From NCBI RefSeq assembly GCF_001422285.1, contig NZ_LMMO01000004.1, positions 186,631 through 250,630 of the forward strand: a stretch of 64,000 nt of DNA, written 5' to 3'. Position 1 is the first letter of the stretch, and every line of letters starts with the position of its first letter. Below the pieces are notes generated by a model. That model was not told where the DNA came from. It saw only the letters and a list, made by a program, of their open reading frames with translations, and did no database searches. The translations under genes and the position numbers were made by a program. The stretch is from Frigoribacterium sp. Leaf263 (lineage in GTDB: Bacteria > Actinomycetota > Actinomycetes > Actinomycetales > Microbacteriaceae). Shown here piece after piece: positions 56,616 to 63,356 of the stretch.

Positions 56616-57572
56616 ATGTCCGATCCCGCCTCGACGCACCACGTCGACCCGGCGGGCGGCCCAGCGGTCGTGACCGTGTACCGGCCGTCCGACCCGGTCG
56701 ACGTGCGGGCGACCCTGCGGCCGCTCTCGCGGGGCGCCGGCGACCCCGCCTACCGCGTGATCGGCGGCGTCGTGTGGCGGGCGATCCGCACGCCGTCGGG
56801 GGCCGCGACCCTGCGCCTCGAGGCGGTCGCCGACGGCGTGCACGCCCGCGCGTGGGGCCCCGGCGCCGAGTGGGTCATCGAGTCCGTGCCCGAGATGCTC
56901 GGCCGAGGCGACGACTGGTCGGGGCTCGACGTCTCCGGCAGCGCCCTGCTGCGCGACGCCCGGCACCGCCTGCCGGGGCTCCGGCTGACCCGGGTCAACC
57001 AGGTGGTGCAGGTGCTCGTGCCGGCGGTGCTCGAGCAGAAGGTGACGAGCCGGGAGGCGTGGCGGGCCTGGCGCGATCTCGTCCGCCGACACGGCGAGCC
57101 CGCGCCGGGGCCGGCCCCCGAGGGGCTGGTCGTGCCGCCCGACGCCGCGGGCTGGCGCCGCATCCCGAGCTGGGACTGGCACCGCGCCGGGGTCGGTCCC
57201 CAGCGGTCCGACACGGTCATGCGGGTCTGCGCCGTGGCGTCGTCGCTCGAGCGGACGCTGTCGCTCGGGCGCGGGGGCCCCGGGGTCGAGCGGCGCCTGC
57301 GGTCGATCCCCGGCATCGGCGTGTGGACGGCCGCCGAGACGATGCAGCGTTCGCACGGCGACGCCGACAGCCCGAGCGTCGGCGACTACCACCTCCCCGC
57401 GCTCGTGGGCTGGGCCCTGATCGGGAGGCCGGTCGACGACGACGGCATGCTCGAGCTGCTCGAGCCGTGGCGGGGTCACCGCGAGCGGGTGATGCGCCTC
57501 ATCTCGGCGAGCGGCTTCTCGAAGCCGAAGTTCGGCCCGCGGATGACCATCCAGGACCACCGCTTCCACTGA
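56616..57572 (+). CDS. AlkA-like HhH-GPD DNA glycosylase
   Basis: The protein has 318 residues. The helix-hairpin-helix RSIPGIGVWTAAET (about 229-242) is followed by DSPSVGDYHLP, with the catalytic Asp at D257. The upstream block VNQVVQVLVPAVLEQKVTSREAWRAW is the interrogating helix region of 3-methyladenine glycosylases (E-Q-K-V-T/S). No C-terminal [4Fe-4S] cysteines are present. It should excise alkylated or oxidised bases. The leaderless start is at ATG 56616. Confidence 0.9.
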   Translation: MSDPASTHHVDPAGGPAVVTVYRPSDPVDVRATLRPLSRGAGDPAYRVIGGVVWRAIRTPSGAATLRLEAVADGVHARAWGPGAEWVIESVPEMLGRGDDWSGLDVSGSALLRDARHRLPGLRLTRVNQVVQVLVPAVLEQKVTSREAWRAWRDLVRRHGEPAPGPAPEGLVVPPDAAGWRRIPSWDWHRAGVGPQRSDTVMRVCAVASSLERTLSLGRGGPGVERRLRSIPGIGVWTAAETMQRSHGDADSPSVGDYHLPALVGWALIGRPVDDDGMLELLEPWRGHRERVMRLISASGFSKPKFGPRMTIQDHRFH

Positions 57573-57661: not shown

Positions 57662-57693
57662 GGCGGTCGGGCGGTCGGGCGGTCAGGCGGTCG
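57662..57693. repeat. Octamer tandem repeat at the 3' end of the MarR gene
   Basis: Four head-to-tail copies of GGCGGTCG (third copy GGCGGTCA) span the stop codon of the convergent MarR gene (57683). They contribute its last codons. Confidence 0.65.
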
Positions 57694-58177
57694 GATCGGG
57701 GCCCGGGCGCGCGGGGCCGTCGGGCGAGGCGTCCGCTCCGATCGCGCCGAGGACGCGATCGGCGAAGGCCTGCAGAGTCTGCGCGTCGTCGCCGAGCGAG
57801 GTCACGAAGTACTCGTGGATGGCCGCGGTGTGACCACGGGTCGCCGTCAGCATCGCGCGTCGGCCGTCGGCCGTCAGCTCGACCCAGGTGCCGCGGCCGT
57901 CCGTCGGGCACTCCGAGCGGCGCACGAGCCCGCGCCTCTCCATGCGGGTGACCTGATGGCTGACGCGGCTCTTCTCCCAGCCGATGTGGTCGGCGATGTC
58001 CCGGACCCGGAGGCGCCGGTCGGCGCTGCGACCCAGCCCCACCAGGATCTCGTACTCGGCCGCCGACACGCCCGACTGCGTGTGCAGGCGCAGCTCGAGC
58101 GCGCGATCGAGCCGTCGTCGCATGTTGTAGAAGGCGTCCCAGACGGCCCACTCGTCGTCGGTCAGTTCGTGGGACAT
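57683..58177 (-). CDS. MarR-family transcriptional regulator, divergent to the PutA-like gene
   Basis: The protein has 164 residues. HELTDDEWAVWDAFYNMRRRLDRALELRLH opens; the wHTH is ILVGLGRSADRRLRVRDIADHIGWEKSRVSHQVTRMERRGLVRRSECPTDGRGTWVELTADGRRAM. This W-E-K-S-R-V-S-H type is common in actinobacterial MarR proteins. The C-terminus is a Pro-rich tail partly encoded by an octamer repeat. ATG 58177 lies 6 bases behind TACACT. Only 41 bases separate it from the PutA-like gene, which it probably controls. Confidence 0.9.
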   Translation of the reverse strand: MSHELTDDEWAVWDAFYNMRRRLDRALELRLHTQSGVSAAEYEILVGLGRSADRRLRVRDIADHIGWEKSRVSHQVTRMERRGLVRRSECPTDGRGTWVELTADGRRAMLTATRGHTAAIHEYFVTSLGDDAQTLQAFADRVLGAIGADASPDGPARPGPDPTA

Positions 58178-58183
58178 TCGCCC

Positions 58184-58212
58184 AGTGTAGAGACGGTGGT
58201 GCGGCATATCCT
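58184..58212. promoter_or_regulatory. Divergent leaderless promoters, MarR / PutA-like
   Basis: TACACT (minus, 58184-58189) and TATCCT (plus, 58207-58212) each end 6 bases before their ATGs within a 41-base gap. Binding of the MarR protein here would control both genes. Confidence 0.6.
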
Positions 58213-58218
58213 CGGGCC

Positions 58219-61200
58219 ATGCCCGATGTGAACGCCGCCGACCTCACACAGCAGACCGCCGAGACCGCCCGGCGATGGCAGCAGGCCGCGAGCGGCGCAC
58301 CGGTCGACGCGACGGCCGCCCGGCTGGCCCGGGTGACGCGCGATCCCGAGGGTCTCGACTTCACGGCGGCGTTCATCGACGGCGTCGTCCTCGTCGACGA
58401 CCCGGCCGTCGCGGCCCGCCGACTCGACGGCCTCAGCCGCTCGATGCCCGACTCGCTCCCGTGGCCTCTGCGCGCCGCCGTCTCGACCGGCGGCGGCTTC
58501 GGCCCGCTGGCGCCCCGCGCCGTGATCCCCGTCGCCCGGCGGGCGTTCCGTCGCCTGGTCGAGCACCTCGTCGTCGACGAGACGCCCGAGCGGCTCGCGG
58601 CGCAGCTGCCGGCGCTCGCCGTCGACGGATCGTGGCCGAACCTCGCCCCGCTGGGCGAACCCGTCGTCGGACCGGCGGGCGCCGACCGACGGCTCGCCCG
58701 GGTGCGCGCGCTCGTCGCCCGTGGCGACGTGCGGCACGTCTCGTTCTCGCTGCGCGACGTCGGCGGCCCGTTCGGCCCCTGGGGCCTCGACGAGACCGCG
58801 GCGGCGCTCGTCGAGCGGCTGACCCCGCTCTACGAGCTCGCGCGGAGCGGCGAGACGCCGACCCTGCTCGATCTCGACATGGGGAGGCGCGGCGAACTCG
58901 ACCTGACCGTCGACGTCTTCACGCGCCTCCTCGATCAGCCCTCGCTGCGGGGTCTGCACGCCGGCATCGCGCTGCAGGCCTATCTGCCCGACGCCCTCGC
59001 GACCCTCGAGCTGCTCACCGACTGGGCGCGGCAGCGGGTGGCCGAGGGCGGCGCGCCGATCCGCGTCCGGCTGGTGAAGGGCGGCAACCTCGGCGCCGAG
59101 GCCGTCGAGGCGGCACGTCACGGGCGGGCCGCACCCACCCTCCCGTCGAAGGCGGCGACCGACGCCTCGTACCGACGCCTGCTCGATCACGCCCTGCGGC
59201 CCGAGAACGCCGCCGTGGCGCACGTCGGCGTCGCCACGCACGACCTGACCGACCTCGCGCACGCCTGGACTCTCGCGCGCCACCGCGACGTCGCCGGGTC
59301 GGTCGTGTTCGAGATGATGCACGGACTCGCCCCGGCTCAGACCCGCGTCGTCGCGGCCGAGGTCGGGGGCATGGCCGTCTACACGCCGACGGCGCCGCCC
59401 GCCGAGTCCGACGCGGCGGTCGGCGCTCTCATCCGGGGCCTGATCGGCGGGGGTCCGAGCGCCGGGGGCGGTGCGGGTGCGGGTGCCGGTGCCGGTGCGG
59501 GGAGTGACGACCTCGCCGACGCGGCCGACGCCGCCGACGCCATCGACGCCGACGGGGCCGACGACGCGACATCGGGCGACGCATCCACGCGGCCCGCGCC
59601 TCCCTACGGTGACCTCGTCTCCGCGCCCGACTCGGATCCCGCCCTCGACGCGGTCCGTGCCTGGGCCCGGCGGATCCTCGTGGCCGCCCGCACCTCCGAG
59701 CTCGGTCTCGAGCAGATCGAGGGGGCCCGCGTGCGGGACCACGGGCGCCTCGAGGAGATCGTGGCGCGCACGGTCGAGGCCGGGGTCGCCTGGGGGCGTC
59801 GCGAGCATGCTCTCCGCGCCGAGCTCCTCGATCGGGTGGCGGCGAAGATCGACTCGCATCGGGCCCGCCTGATCGAGGTGTTGGTCAGCGAGACCGGCGC
59901 GACCATGACCGAGGCCGACCTCGACGTCGCCGCGGCCGTCGACGCCGCCCGCTGGCATGCGGTGCTCGCCCGCGGACTGGGTGACGTCCGCGGTGCCCGC
60001 TACGCGCCTCCTCGGCTCACCGTCGTCGTGCCGACCGCCGACTCGGCCGTCTCGACCCTGATCGGCTCCGTCTCGGCTGCGCTCGCCGCCGGCAGCGGCG
60101 TCGTCGTCCGCCCGGCGTCGGAGGCCTGCCGCACCGCGTCGGTCGTCTCGGACCTGCTGCGTTCGGCCGGGGTGCCGACGTCGCTCGTGTCGACGGCGAT
60201 CGTCGACGACCTCGAGCTCGCCCACGATCTGCTCATGCACCCGGCCGTCGACCGCGTCGTGCAGCACGGATCGTTCGACGACGCGGCCCGGATCCGCTCC
60301 TTCCGCGGCGATCGCGAGATGTGGGCCGAGACCGCCGGGCTGAACTCCGTCGCCGTGGCCGAGAGCGCCGACCTCGACCGCGCGGCCGTCGACGTCGTCG
60401 CGGGGGCGGTGGCTCACGCCGGTCAGGCGCCGTGGGTCGCTCGCCTCGTCGTGGTGGTCGGGTCGCCGATCCGGGTCGACGCCTTCCGTCGTCGGCTCGT
60501 CGACGCCGTCGCCGCTCTCCGCGTCGGCTGGCCGGACGTCGTGACGACCGACGTCGGGCCGCTGATCGACCCCGCCGAGGGGCCGCTGCTCGCCGCCCTG
60601 ACCCGGCTCGACTCCGGTGAGAGCTGGCTGGTCGAGCCCGAGCGGCTCGACGACGACGGCCTGCTCTGGCGGCCCGGTGTGCGCGACGGCGTGCGACCGG
60701 GCGGAACGTTCTTCGCGCCCACCCGCGGCGGGCCCGTCATCGGCCTGATGCGCGTCGACACCCTCGGCGAGGCCATCGAGGTGCAGAACTCGCTCGACCG
60801 TTCGATCACCGCGGGCCTGCATTCGCTCGACGCGGGCGAGGTCGAACGCTGGCTCGACGAGGTGGAGGCGGGTTCGCTCGTGGTCAACCGCCCCGTCGCG
60901 GCCCCTCGCGCCGGGCGGTCGCCGGCGGCTGGTCGACGCCGTGCCTCGATCGGGCGGACGACGGCCTCAGGAGGCGCGCACACCGTCACCGCGCAGGGCG
61001 CCTGGTCGCGCGTGGCCCGGTCGCCCGAGAAGTCGCTCGCCCTCGACGGCGTCTCCGAACCGGTCGTCCGGCTGATCGAGGCCGCGCGAGCGAACCTCTC
61101 GTTCGACGAGTTCGACCGGGTCCGCGCCGCGGCTCGAAGCGACGAGAGGGCGTGGAGCGACCTGTTCGGGGCGTCGCGCGAGATCGGGGGCGTCCCGGTC

Positions 61201-61749
61201 GAGCGCACGCTCGTACGGCACCGACCCGCGTCGGTCGTGCTGCGTCTGGCGTCGGGCGGCGACCCCGTCGACCTCGTGCGGCTGATCGCGGCGGCCACCC
61301 GCGCCCGTGCCCGCGTCGACGTCAGCACCGCCTCGCCCCTGCCCGCCTCGCTCCGGCTGCTGATCACCTCGCCGCGGTCGCCGGTCCAGGTCGGCTCGGT
61401 GGTCGTCGAGAGCGACGAGGCCTTCTTCGACCGGGCCGCCGTCGGGGGGCTCCAGAACGCCGACGACGAGCGCGACCTCGTCGTCGACCTCGGCATCGCG
61501 CCGTCGGGTGCGCCCCGGCGGGTCGCCGACTACCGCGGGCTGCGCATCCGGCTGATCGGTCAGGGGCGGACGGCCCTGTCGTCGGCCTTCGGCAACAGCG
61601 CCGACGTCGCCGTGTGGACGGGCGAGGTGACCGACGAGGGGCGCGTCGAGCTGCTGCCGTTCGTGCACGAGCAGACGGTCACGGTCGCCGCCCACCGCGA
61701 CGGGCGCCCCGACGCCTCGCTGCGCCGACTGGTCGGAGGCCTGCGCTAG
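58219..61749 (+). CDS. putA: PutA-like fusion of proline dehydrogenase and aldehyde dehydrogenase domains, catalytic motifs degenerate
   Basis: The protein has 1176 residues in PutA order. The N-terminal PRODH barrel (about 155-410) keeps LQAYLPDAL, VRLVKGGN (284-290) and VVFEMMHGL, but the proline-binding RRLEEN signature reads IRGLIGG (405-411). A Gly/Ala/Asp linker (412-460) follows. In the ALDH half (about 470-930) PWNFP is replaced by PTADS (605-609), the cofactor Lys of KP by Arg (R631), and the GQxC nucleophile motif reads GQAP (P738 for Cys), while AET (703-705), TAGLHSLD and NR remain. The C-terminus is long and divergent. The frame is intact, so this is either a pseudoenzyme paralogue or has a new role. 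It is probably controlled by the divergent MarR. Confidence 0.8.
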   Translation: MPDVNAADLTQQTAETARRWQQAASGAPVDATAARLARVTRDPEGLDFTAAFIDGVVLVDDPAVAARRLDGLSRSMPDSLPWPLRAAVSTGGGFGPLAPRAVIPVARRAFRRLVEHLVVDETPERLAAQLPALAVDGSWPNLAPLGEPVVGPAGADRRLARVRALVARGDVRHVSFSLRDVGGPFGPWGLDETAAALVERLTPLYELARSGETPTLLDLDMGRRGELDLTVDVFTRLLDQPSLRGLHAGIALQAYLPDALATLELLTDWARQRVAEGGAPIRVRLVKGGNLGAEAVEAARHGRAAPTLPSKAATDASYRRLLDHALRPENAAVAHVGVATHDLTDLAHAWTLARHRDVAGSVVFEMMHGLAPAQTRVVAAEVGGMAVYTPTAPPAESDAAVGALIRGLIGGGPSAGGGAGAGAGAGAGSDDLADAADAADAIDADGADDATSGDASTRPAPPYGDLVSAPDSDPALDAVRAWARRILVAARTSELGLEQIEGARVRDHGRLEEIVARTVEAGVAWGRREHALRAELLDRVAAKIDSHRARLIEVLVSETGATMTEADLDVAAAVDAARWHAVLARGLGDVRGARYAPPRLTVVVPTADSAVSTLIGSVSAALAAGSGVVVRPASEACRTASVVSDLLRSAGVPTSLVSTAIVDDLELAHDLLMHPAVDRVVQHGSFDDAARIRSFRGDREMWAETAGLNSVAVAESADLDRAAVDVVAGAVAHAGQAPWVARLVVVVGSPIRVDAFRRRLVDAVAALRVGWPDVVTTDVGPLIDPAEGPLLAALTRLDSGESWLVEPERLDDDGLLWRPGVRDGVRPGGTFFAPTRGGPVIGLMRVDTLGEAIEVQNSLDRSITAGLHSLDAGEVERWLDEVEAGSLVVNRPVAAPRAGRSPAAGRRRASIGRTTASGGAHTVTAQGAWSRVARSPEKSLALDGVSEPVVRLIEAARANLSFDEFDRVRAAARSDERAWSDLFGASREIGGVPVERTLVRHRPASVVLRLASGGDPVDLVRLIAAATRARARVDVSTASPLPASLRLLITSPRSPVQVGSVVVESDEAFFDRAAVGGLQNADDERDLVVDLGIAPSGAPRRVADYRGLRIRLIGQGRTALSSAFGNSADVAVWTGEVTDEGRVELLPFVHEQTVTVAAHRDGRPDASLRRLVGGLR

Positions 61750-61830
61750 CTCGGAGGTGAGGTGAGGTGCGGTGCGGCTCGGAGGCCTGCGCGAGCTCGG
61801 CGGCCTGCGCCGGCTCGGAGGCGCGCGGCT
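61734..61830. repeat. 18-bp repeat units derived from the end of the PutA-like gene
   Basis: CGGAGGCCTGCGCTAGCT (61734-61751, containing the stop) is echoed by CGGAGGCCTGCGCGAGCT (61780-61797), CGGCGGCCTGCGCCGGCT (61798-61815) and a partial CGGAGGCGCGCGGCT (61816-61830). The 196-base gap to the Lrp gene is otherwise without recognised features. Confidence 0.75.
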
Positions 61831-61945
61831 CCAAGGTCTCCGCTGACTCCGAGGTGCGGATGCCGGGGCGCGGCGAGCCGTGCCCGTGCTCTCGCCCGTT
61901 CGCGGTTGCCCGTGCCCGTTCTGGTTCCCCTGCGCACCGAGCCGC

Positions 61946-62383
61946 TCAGGCCGGGTGTCGGCTGATCAGCTTCGACAGGACGATGGCGCTGCGGGTGTGG
62001 TCGACGTTGGGTGCGTTGCGGACGCGCTCGAGCGCCTCCTCGAGCGAGGGGATGTCGCGGCTGCGCATGTGGACGATCGCGTCGGCGCTGCCCGTGACCG
62101 TTCCGGCGTCGACGACCTCGGGCACGGTGCTGAGGATGCGCTGCAGCTCCTGCGGCGACACGGTGCCGCGGCAGAAGAGCTCGACGTAGGCCTCGGTGCC
62201 GAGCCCGTCGACCGCGGGGTCGACCTGCACGGTGAACCCCTTGATGACCCCGTCGGCGACGAGCCGGTCGACCCGGCGCTTCACGGCCGAGGCGCTGAGG
62301 CCGACGGACGCCCCGATGTCGCCGTACCCGGCGCGGGCGTTCTGGCGGAGCAGGTCGATGATGCCGAAATCGAGATTGTCCAC
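61946..62383 (-). CDS. Lrp/AsnC-family transcriptional regulator
   Basis: The protein has 145 residues. The N-terminal HTH reads FGIIDLLRQNARAGYGDIGASVGLSASAVKRRVDRLVADGVIKGF; the RAM/AsnC ligand domain follows (PAVDGLGTEAYVELFCRG, VTGSADAIVHMRSRDIPSLEEALERVR). It diverges from a dimethylargininase gene; in actinobacteria such Lrp proteins usually control arginine/ornithine breakdown. GTG 62383 lies 6 bases behind TAGGGT (leaderless). Confidence 0.92.
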   Translation of the reverse strand: MDNLDFGIIDLLRQNARAGYGDIGASVGLSASAVKRRVDRLVADGVIKGFTVQVDPAVDGLGTEAYVELFCRGTVSPQELQRILSTVPEVVDAGTVTGSADAIVHMRSRDIPSLEEALERVRNAPNVDHTRSAIVLSKLISRHPA

Positions 62384-62480: not shown

Positions 62481-63356
62481 GTGAGCATCACGAGCGACTC
62501 CGTGGACACCGCCGGAGACCCCCAGAACCCGATCACCCGTCGAGCCACCCCGCGCACGGTGCTGATGTGCCGACCCGACCACTTCACCGTGAGCTACAAG
62601 ATCAACCCGTGGATGGACCCGGCCGAGCCCACCGACACGGCCAAGGCGGTCGCCCAGTGGCAGGTGCTGTACGACACGTACGTCGGGCTCGGCCACGACG
62701 TGCACCTGATCGACCCGATCGACGGCCTGCCCGACATGGTCTACGCGGCGAACGGCGGCTTCGTCGTCGACGGCAAGGCCTACGGCGCCCTCTTCACCTA
62801 CCCCGAGCGCCAGCCCGAGGGCCCCGCGTACATGGACTGGTTCCGCGACGCGGGCTTCGAGGTCGCCGTCCCGAGCGAGATCAACGAGGGCGAGGGCGAC
62901 CTCCTCCTCGTGGGCGACGTCGTGCTCGCCGGCACCGGGTTCCGCACCTCGACCCGCTCGCACGACGAGGTCGCCCGGGTGTTCGGCCGCGAGGTCGTCG
63001 GGCTCACGCTGGTGGACCCCGCCTTCTATCACCTGGACACCGCCGTGGCCGTGCTCGACCCCGAGCCGGTCGAGGGCCGCCAGAACATCGCCTACCTCGA
63101 GAGCGCCTTCGACGCGCCCTCGCTCGAGATCCTCCGCGAGAGGTTCCCCGACGCGATCCTGGTCGACGAGCAGGATGCCGCGATCCTCGGGCTCAACTCG
63201 TACAGCGACGGCTACAACGTCGTCATCGCCGCCCGGGCCACCGGCTTCGAGCGCCAGCTGCGCGAACGCGGCTACAACCCGATCGGCGTCGACCTCTCCG
63301 AGCTGCTGCTGGGCGGCGGCGGGGTCAAGTGCTGCACCCTCGATCTGCGACGCTGA
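62481..63356 (+). CDS. ddaH: Dimethylargininase / amidinotransferase-fold hydrolase (DDAH-like)
   Basis: The 291-residue guanidino-group-modifying enzyme has VLMCRPDHFTVSYKINPWMD, DMVYAANGGFVVDGKAYGALF (N-G-G/A-F substrate region), the conserved EGEGDLLLVG, TGFRTSTRSHDEV (Arg for the carboxylate), FYHLDTAVAVLDP (catalytic His in Y-H-L-D) and nucleophile Cys in GGGGVKCCTLDLRR. DDAH gives citrulline and dimethylamine from methylarginines; arginine-deiminase or ornithine-linked activity of the same fold cannot be excluded. GTG 62481 lacks a ribosome site; GACACT lies 7 bases upstream. Confidence 0.9.
   Translation: MSITSDSVDTAGDPQNPITRRATPRTVLMCRPDHFTVSYKINPWMDPAEPTDTAKAVAQWQVLYDTYVGLGHDVHLIDPIDGLPDMVYAANGGFVVDGKAYGALFTYPERQPEGPAYMDWFRDAGFEVAVPSEINEGEGDLLLVGDVVLAGTGFRTSTRSHDEVARVFGREVVGLTLVDPAFYHLDTAVAVLDPEPVEGRQNIAYLESAFDAPSLEILRERFPDAILVDEQDAAILGLNSYSDGYNVVIAARATGFERQLRERGYNPIGVDLSELLLGGGGVKCCTLDLRR

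Follow-up and report, generated by a model that had tools for sequence, protein, structure and literature searches.

A second PutA of Frigoribacterium with both active sites degraded, maintained across the genus as a probable pseudoenzyme

PutA2 and its altered active sites

The window analysed here, a stretch of 64,000 nucleotides from Frigoribacterium sp. Leaf263 (contig NZ_LMMO01000004.1), carries the gene of a large PutA-type protein, designated PutA2, whose reading frame is open across all 1176 codons. Pfam, sequence match, tree and fold all place its homology across both enzyme domains, proline dehydrogenase (PRODH) and pyrroline-5-carboxylate (P5C) dehydrogenase (P5CDH), in PutA order. 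This two-enzyme protein is apparently without both active sites, yet under purifying selection across the genus. The gene has a GC content of 76%; its parts and its neighbours are listed in Table 1.

Table 1. Features of the PutA2 locus, with positions in the window
Feature	Position	Strand	Remarks
PutA2	58219..61749	+	1176-aa PutA-fold protein, both active sites degraded
PutA2 PRODH barrel	58654..59451	+	residues 146-411; K329-equivalent S177 (58747-58749), R556-equivalent G407 (59437-59439)
PutA2 Gly/Ala/Asp low-complexity linker	59452..59634	+	residues 412-472; predicted local distance difference test score (pLDDT) <50 at 411-472
PutA2 P5CDH domain (aldehyde dehydrogenase (ALDH) fold)	59689..61008	+	residues 491-930; PPWNFP Asn = D608 (60040-60042), nucleophile Cys = P738 (60430-60432)
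PutA2 C-terminal PutA domain	61009..61731	+	residues 931-1171; best-kept domain
Divergent MarR1/PutA2 intergenic stretch	58178..58218	.	41 bp, start codon to start codon
MarR1, MarR-family regulator	57683..58177	-	conserved neighbour; start 58207 in the list of open reading frames (ORFs), ATG conserved in relatives at 58177
Gene X	56616-57572		conserved 318-aa neighbour
Lrp/AsnC-family regulator	61946..62383	-	94-99% identical to the window's in 15/15 other genus genomes
DdaH-type dimethylargininase	62484..63356 (start approximate)	+	conserved neighbour

In Pfam, PutA2 matched only Pro_dh (132 bits) and Aldedh (180 bits), with no DNA-binding domain among the matches; PutA1, the canonical PutA of the same genome, scored 202 and 311 bits with these two models. 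The best solved relative of residues 9-1030, both in sequence and in fold, is the PutA of Corynebacterium freiburgense (5ux5), with which PutA2 shares the full-length order of PRODH, P5CDH and C-terminal domain. Unlike this canonical protein, PutA2 has neither the catalytic Cys nor the Asn of PPWNFP, is missing the Lys and one Arg of the substrate site, and possesses a long low-complexity linker. This linker between the two enzymes, rich in Gly, Ala and Asp, differs in length among relatives. A record of Frigoribacterium sp. CFBP 13712 carries a sequence 78% identical to PutA2. The cut-off of the NCBIfam PutA model PRK11904.1 (747 bits) was dropped as a discriminating test, since not only PutA2 (162 bits) but also canonical PutA1 (361) and the intact PutA2 of genome G019 (364, from a 1095-aa stretch) fall below it.

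Aligned with PutA1, PutA2 reads P605-T-A-D-S-A610 in place of PPWNFP, R631-P in place of KP, E704-T-A-G-L-N in place of ETSGKN, H733-A-G-Q-A-P738-W in place of HAGQKCS, G899-R-S-P-A-A-G905 in place of RRQPFGG, and R406-G-L-I-G-G411 in place of RRLEEN. Expressed in the numbering of Escherichia coli PutA, K329 has become S177, E372 G222, L513 M367, R556 G407, E559 G410 and C917 P738, and the Asn of PPWNFP is D608. Of the Arg pair that holds the PRODH substrate, R555 is kept (as R406) and R556 is gone (G407), as is the substrate Lys (S177). Missing catalytic and binding residues in both domains had already been noticed in a sequence-only reading of the window; the alignment confirms them and adds the equivalents of K329, E372 and L513. 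That reading had also considered a different Cys at the nucleophile site, which can be ruled out, the sole Cys of the protein (C637) lying some 100 residues ahead of position 738, the nucleophile column. Retained in PutA2 are D220, Q253, R284, V286, K287, H341, Y388, R406 and E704. A PutA match was found in 131 of the 150 genomes surveyed, and 92 distinct PutA-type sequences were read, mainly from near relatives and second copies; 71 of them keep all 12 scored residues, a share that this choice of sample prevents from being a population frequency, and PutA2 keeps 7, a shortfall not to be put down to chance.

We take K329, R555, R556, Y540, L513 and C917 of E. coli PutA to correspond to the contact residues and the nucleophile of the S. 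meliloti enzyme. In the latter, Cys844 serves as the nucleophile, and the residues in contact with proline or P5C are Lys265, Arg488, Arg489, Tyr473 and Leu449 (PMC12398946). From the known chemistry of the missing residues, PutA2 without Cys and Asn should have no P5CDH activity, and without the Lys, one Arg and the Glu residues its PRODH activity should be abolished or badly impaired. By homology PutA2 belongs to the PutA family; as far as its residues tell, it is not a functional PutA in catalytic terms, the relatives used for comparison being taken as active from their own residues.

An AlphaFold2 (AF2) model built from an alignment of 31 rows, canonical ones included, reached a pLDDT of 83.3 and a predicted template modelling score (pTM) of 0.83. 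Its top Foldseek match was again PutA 5ux5, with a template modelling (TM) score of 0.90 by target length and 0.74 by query length.

PutA1 and PutA2 across the genus

A second, canonical PutA, which the sequence-only reading had thought worth looking for, is present in the window's own genome: PutA1 is 45% identical to PutA2 and has intact PPWNFP, KPA, ETSGKN, HAGQKCS, RRQPFGG and RRLEEN motifs. All 16 Frigoribacterium genomes examined hold both genes. The 12 scored residues are kept by PutA1 in 17/17 rows (the 16 genus genomes and G019, from a second genus). Among the 15 readable genus copies of PutA2, K329, E372 and L513 are lost in every one and the Cys in 14, the copy of G003 retaining its Cys and lacking E883 and the two lysines, 329 and 434. 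In the scored piece of the G015 copy the sequence stops before the Cys column, another piece having His there.

The replacements differ between the clades of PutA2 and are uniform within them. Clades A (G001, G007, G011, G012) and C (G000, G002, G005) have Pro instead of Cys, clade B (G004, G008, G009, G010, G013, G014) has His and G006 has Arg; the old nucleophile site reads GQAPW in 3/3 members of one clade and HAGRGHG in 6/6 of another. Losses in the PRODH site vary likewise, clade A and G006 being without K434 and V433, and clade B without D370 and R555.

The order of gene X, MarR1, PutA2, the Lrp-type gene and DdaH is found in the window and in 15/15 other genus genomes, and with the order unchanged throughout, horizontal replacement of the locus is not favoured. 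PutA2 has the window's neighbours in two genomes of the second genus as well, G019 and G124 (gene X is lacking from the G124 set), where all 12 residues are intact. In the tree, 15 genus PutA2s form one clade (Shimodaira-Hasegawa-like approximate likelihood ratio test, 100), which PutA2 of G019 joins before any other PutA. Because of these intact same-locus copies and the tree position, the losses are derived, having taken place in an ancestor of Frigoribacterium or early within it. For the genus tree the program used its quick method and flagged a possible false long-branch join of the G006 PutA2 with the clade of G010 and its relatives, and the clade with which G005 groups is one for PutA1 and another for PutA2; the larger tree was made with FastTree.

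Selection on PutA2 after the loss

Pairs of the same clade share their dead residues and diverged after the loss, and therefore their dN/dS ratio (omega) measures selection on the dead protein. Trimmed omega was 0.036-0.077 for PutA2 and 0.020-0.046 for PutA1 in seven such pairs (1144-1207 codons), a subset of the 15 pairs of the untrimmed analysis, in which saturation affected one of 30 estimates (G000-G019 PutA1). The likelihood ratio against omega = 1 amounted to 316-717 in 12 within-clade PutA2 pairs with untrimmed frames. Single values shift with trimming and alignment, the PutA2 pair G000-G002 giving 0.065, 0.105 and 0.115; the untrimmed value of G000-G005 was 0.160. Third codon positions hold 58-75% of the PutA2 differences in six pairs.

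Judged by these ratios, selection on PutA2 is relaxed relative to PutA1, yet far from absent, and with only one of 16 frames broken the hallmarks of a pseudogene are not found. Maintenance by selection, as proposed in the sequence-only reading, is thus upheld by omega; the intact 3.5-kb frame which that reading took as its sign is weak by itself at 76% GC and was rejected as evidence, so that the case rests on dN/dS. Neutral simulations without indels left the frame free of stops in 2-8% of cases with the gene's own GC content at third positions (GC3) and in 0.0-0.6% with a GC of 0.72, and long antisense ORFs lie over both genes (886 aa over PutA2, 1212 codons over PutA1). Relaxed selection and frameshifts in relatives, which the same reading had named as signs to the contrary, are seen in part, the former relative to PutA1 and the latter in G015, yet 15 of the 16 frames are intact.

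The relaxation is unevenly distributed along the protein. Omega by domain was higher in PutA2 than in PutA1 in 7/7 pairs for PRODH and in 7/7 for P5CDH, and lower in 7/7 for the C-terminal domain; the G000-G005 pair is counted in the PRODH figure although its PutA1 estimate is near saturation. Values with dS >4 (two PutA2 linker values, the G000-G005 PutA1 PRODH value and most G019-G124 values) were given no weight. Inside three clades, PutA2 protein distances were greater than those of PutA1 by factors of 4.6-6.9 (PRODH), 3.8-5.5 (P5CDH), 2.7-6.3 (N-terminal arm) and 1.2-1.4 (C-terminal domain). This comparison of substitutions shows that constraint fell in the catalytic domains of PutA2 and hardly in its C-terminal domain.

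A similar picture emerges from 334 columns whose identity in canonical PutA is 97% or more (96 rows, 71 of them distinct because some loci occur twice, with the intact second-genus PutA2 rows left out). The 15 dead copies keep on average 64% of these columns, and the intact PutA2s of the second genus keep 96%. Their retention is highest in the C-terminal domain of the dead copies (90%, 22 columns), followed by the N-terminal arm (80%, 36 columns) and the two catalytic domains (60% both of 112 and of 147 columns); by residue type, the dead copies keep 86% of Pro, 80% of Gly, 68% each of aliphatic and charged, 48% of aromatic and 39% of polar positions. This pattern roughly fits a protein selected for fold and contacts and not for catalysis.

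Explanations for a maintained second PutA

Taken together, PutA2 is very probably a maintained but catalytically dead PutA. At a probability of roughly 0.6, we regard it as a pseudoenzyme that lost both activities and whose protein is retained for some role other than catalysis. Its ancestor would have been a bifunctional proline dehydrogenase/P5C dehydrogenase whose two activities were lost within Frigoribacterium, the decay taking place at the ancestral locus beside the ancestral MarR gene, while PutA1 has retained all residues needed for the pathway. PutA2 is presumed to be expressed with a PutA-like fold and to have no residual activity, and would work through protein-protein contacts. Because the C-terminal domain is kept, the pockets are lost and a canonical paralogue is present in 16/16 genomes, the simplest such role would be one with PutA1, by pairing with it or modulating it; that PutA2 acts as its partner or modulator is a tentative proposal, drawn from analogy.

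Several observations weigh against the pseudoenzyme. A number of flavin-site residues and E704 remain in the window's copy, and the protein may still bind flavin or another ligand; charged positions are kept as well as aliphatic ones, so the loss is not simply one of all polar chemistry. PutA2 as a whole evolves about three times faster than PutA1, the seven pairs behind its omega range share genomes and are non-independent, and since among the four PutA1 domains compared the C-terminal one evolves fastest, "kept" stands for about equal and unexceptional conservation. The structure prediction suggested in the sequence-only reading had a divided outcome: good from 31 rows, it was poor from the 14 dead copies alone (pLDDT 63.5, pTM 0.44, with 1077-1176, the end of the C-terminal domain, below 50), and part of the good model may derive from its canonical rows, the dead-only alignment being thin; an intact fold is likely. 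Compared with G013, a near-twin at 98.8% DNA identity, the G015 copy (L083, 5566-9166) carries two frameshifts of one base each, possibly sequencing errors; if the assembly is correct, PutA2 is dispensable in at least one genome of the genus. Both the expression of PutA2 and its contact with PutA1 are what we infer.

Some of these points would be expected if PutA2, redundant beside PutA1, were a slowly decaying pseudogene: its frame would survive because stops are few in GC-rich DNA, and its low omega would be a trace of earlier selection or of the need to avoid toxic misfolding. The broken G015 copy, the roughly threefold faster evolution, the stop-free simulated frames and the poor model from dead copies all suit such a decay, as do active sites that were lost differently from clade to clade and partly degraded copies in four other genera that resemble its stages. 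The low omega is, however, found in pairs that already share their dead residues and evolved after the loss, differences concentrate at third positions, frames are intact in 15/16 genomes, and constraint is redistributed between domains instead of being evenly lost, and we consider such decay improbable.

Equally improbable in our estimate is a repurposed enzyme or ligand sensor, whose altered pockets would bind another metabolite, for example for flavin-linked chemistry on another amine or for sensing without turnover. The clade of the window's copy keeps R284, V286, K287, G288, Q253, H341, Y388 and R406 of the PRODH site, which we take to be flavin-site residues, and the new residues at the old nucleophile site are uniform within clades. 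The clades have no pocket composition in common, however, given the differing losses of K434 and V433 or D370 and R555, and polar residues are the least retained class. Pseudoenzyme, sensor and new specificity had been offered side by side in the sequence-only reading; the first is favoured here, new specificity is less supported because what remains of the active sites is not the same from one clade to the next, and so is the sensor, since some clades have kept flavin-site residues that others have lost. Selection on something else in the same DNA, either the 886-aa antisense ORF or the nearly invariant 41 bp as a MarR1 regulatory stretch, is hardly credible, as the differences by codon position fit the forward frame and the still longer antisense ORF over canonical PutA1 makes such ORFs look like an effect of GC content.

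For the pseudoenzyme, parallels exist in other systems. Human ALDH16A1 resembles PutA2 in having an ALDH fold with missing catalytic residues and differs in being an animal protein that is not a PutA and presumably has no PRODH domain, while PutA2 has both enzyme domains of one protein degraded. This ALDH-fold pseudoenzyme is reported to act via protein contacts (PMC10650815). The trypanosomatid prozyme of S-adenosylmethionine decarboxylase (AdoMetDC) and a dead deoxyhypusine synthase paralogue are reported to be catalytically dead copies kept beside an active one in the same genome, as is PutA2; activation of the live subunit is reported for them and only proposed for PutA2 (PMC5201418, PMC3663545). 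Among the matches listed, no description of a pseudo-PutA or dead PutA was found in titles and the beginnings of abstracts, which does not imply its absence from print. Genes like PutA2 may be annotated as active PutA, and, if our reading is true, the intact same-locus relatives together with partly degraded copies constitute a natural series for the non-catalytic roles of PutA, especially of its C-terminal domain.

The neighbourhood of PutA2 bears on its regulation. The MarR gene to which the sequence-only reading had pointed accompanies PutA2 in the window, in 15/15 other genus genomes and in both second-genus genomes, and the control of PutA2 by it, as suggested there, is plausible from gene position; a scan of 58050-62000 for sigma-70 consensus promoters and terminators found none. 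Six bases before the PutA2 ATG lies TATCCT (58207-58212, forward strand), and six bases before the MarR1 ATG TACACT (58184-58189, reverse strand), which would suit back-to-back leaderless promoters. The 41-bp stretch is near-identical in 15/16 genus genomes and in G019 and G124, G006, read by eye, keeping just the PutA2 side; the stretch may be conserved for MarR1 alone. A 31-base pattern, a candidate MarR1 operator, occurs once in the window's genome with up to three mismatches, at the PutA2 locus. A search allowing up to nine substitutions did not recover the intergenic motif from the stretches of G142, G069, G086, G155, G175, G032, G113, G021, G036 and G006. Of the other neighbours, DdaH scored 424.7 bits in NCBIfam (cut-off 300), its Pfam DDAH and ADI matches being barely over the cut-off; gene X had no Pfam match at E 0.01, and a DNA glycosylase label given to it by eye was withdrawn.

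A broader reading, which we hold less likely than not, is that of a recurrent pseudo-PutA, genus-wide in Frigoribacterium: wherever a genome has come to hold a pair of PutAs, one of them would time and again lose its active sites and turn into the regulatory or structural partner of the other, active one. It would work via its N-terminal arm and its C-terminal domain, with expression from the ancestral promoter beside MarR. The 21 non-canonical sequences of our survey comprise 16 from Frigoribacterium, including the broken G015 copy, and five from four other genera, G142 and G069 sharing one genus: G175 (L142), G142 (L138), G069 (L139), G032 (L143) and G086 (L140). Each of these five genomes has a canonical companion PutA. 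The PRODH Lys is missing in 21/21 non-canonical copies, and three retain the Cys. On the FastTree tree the outside losses lie on separate branches, and G155, from the genus of G086, has a matching copy with all scored residues. In the genus of G069 and G142, the partly degraded copy compared with the other had an omega of 0.114 versus 0.005 for PRODH and 0.044 versus 0.105 for the C-terminal domain, the same pattern as in Frigoribacterium PutA2. The partly degraded copy of G175 sits between gene X and the Lrp-DdaH genes, as in the window, without MarR1. A further PutA-like match, 29-40% identical and in four pieces, was observed in Nesterenkonia pannonica (L066, 6001-9393).

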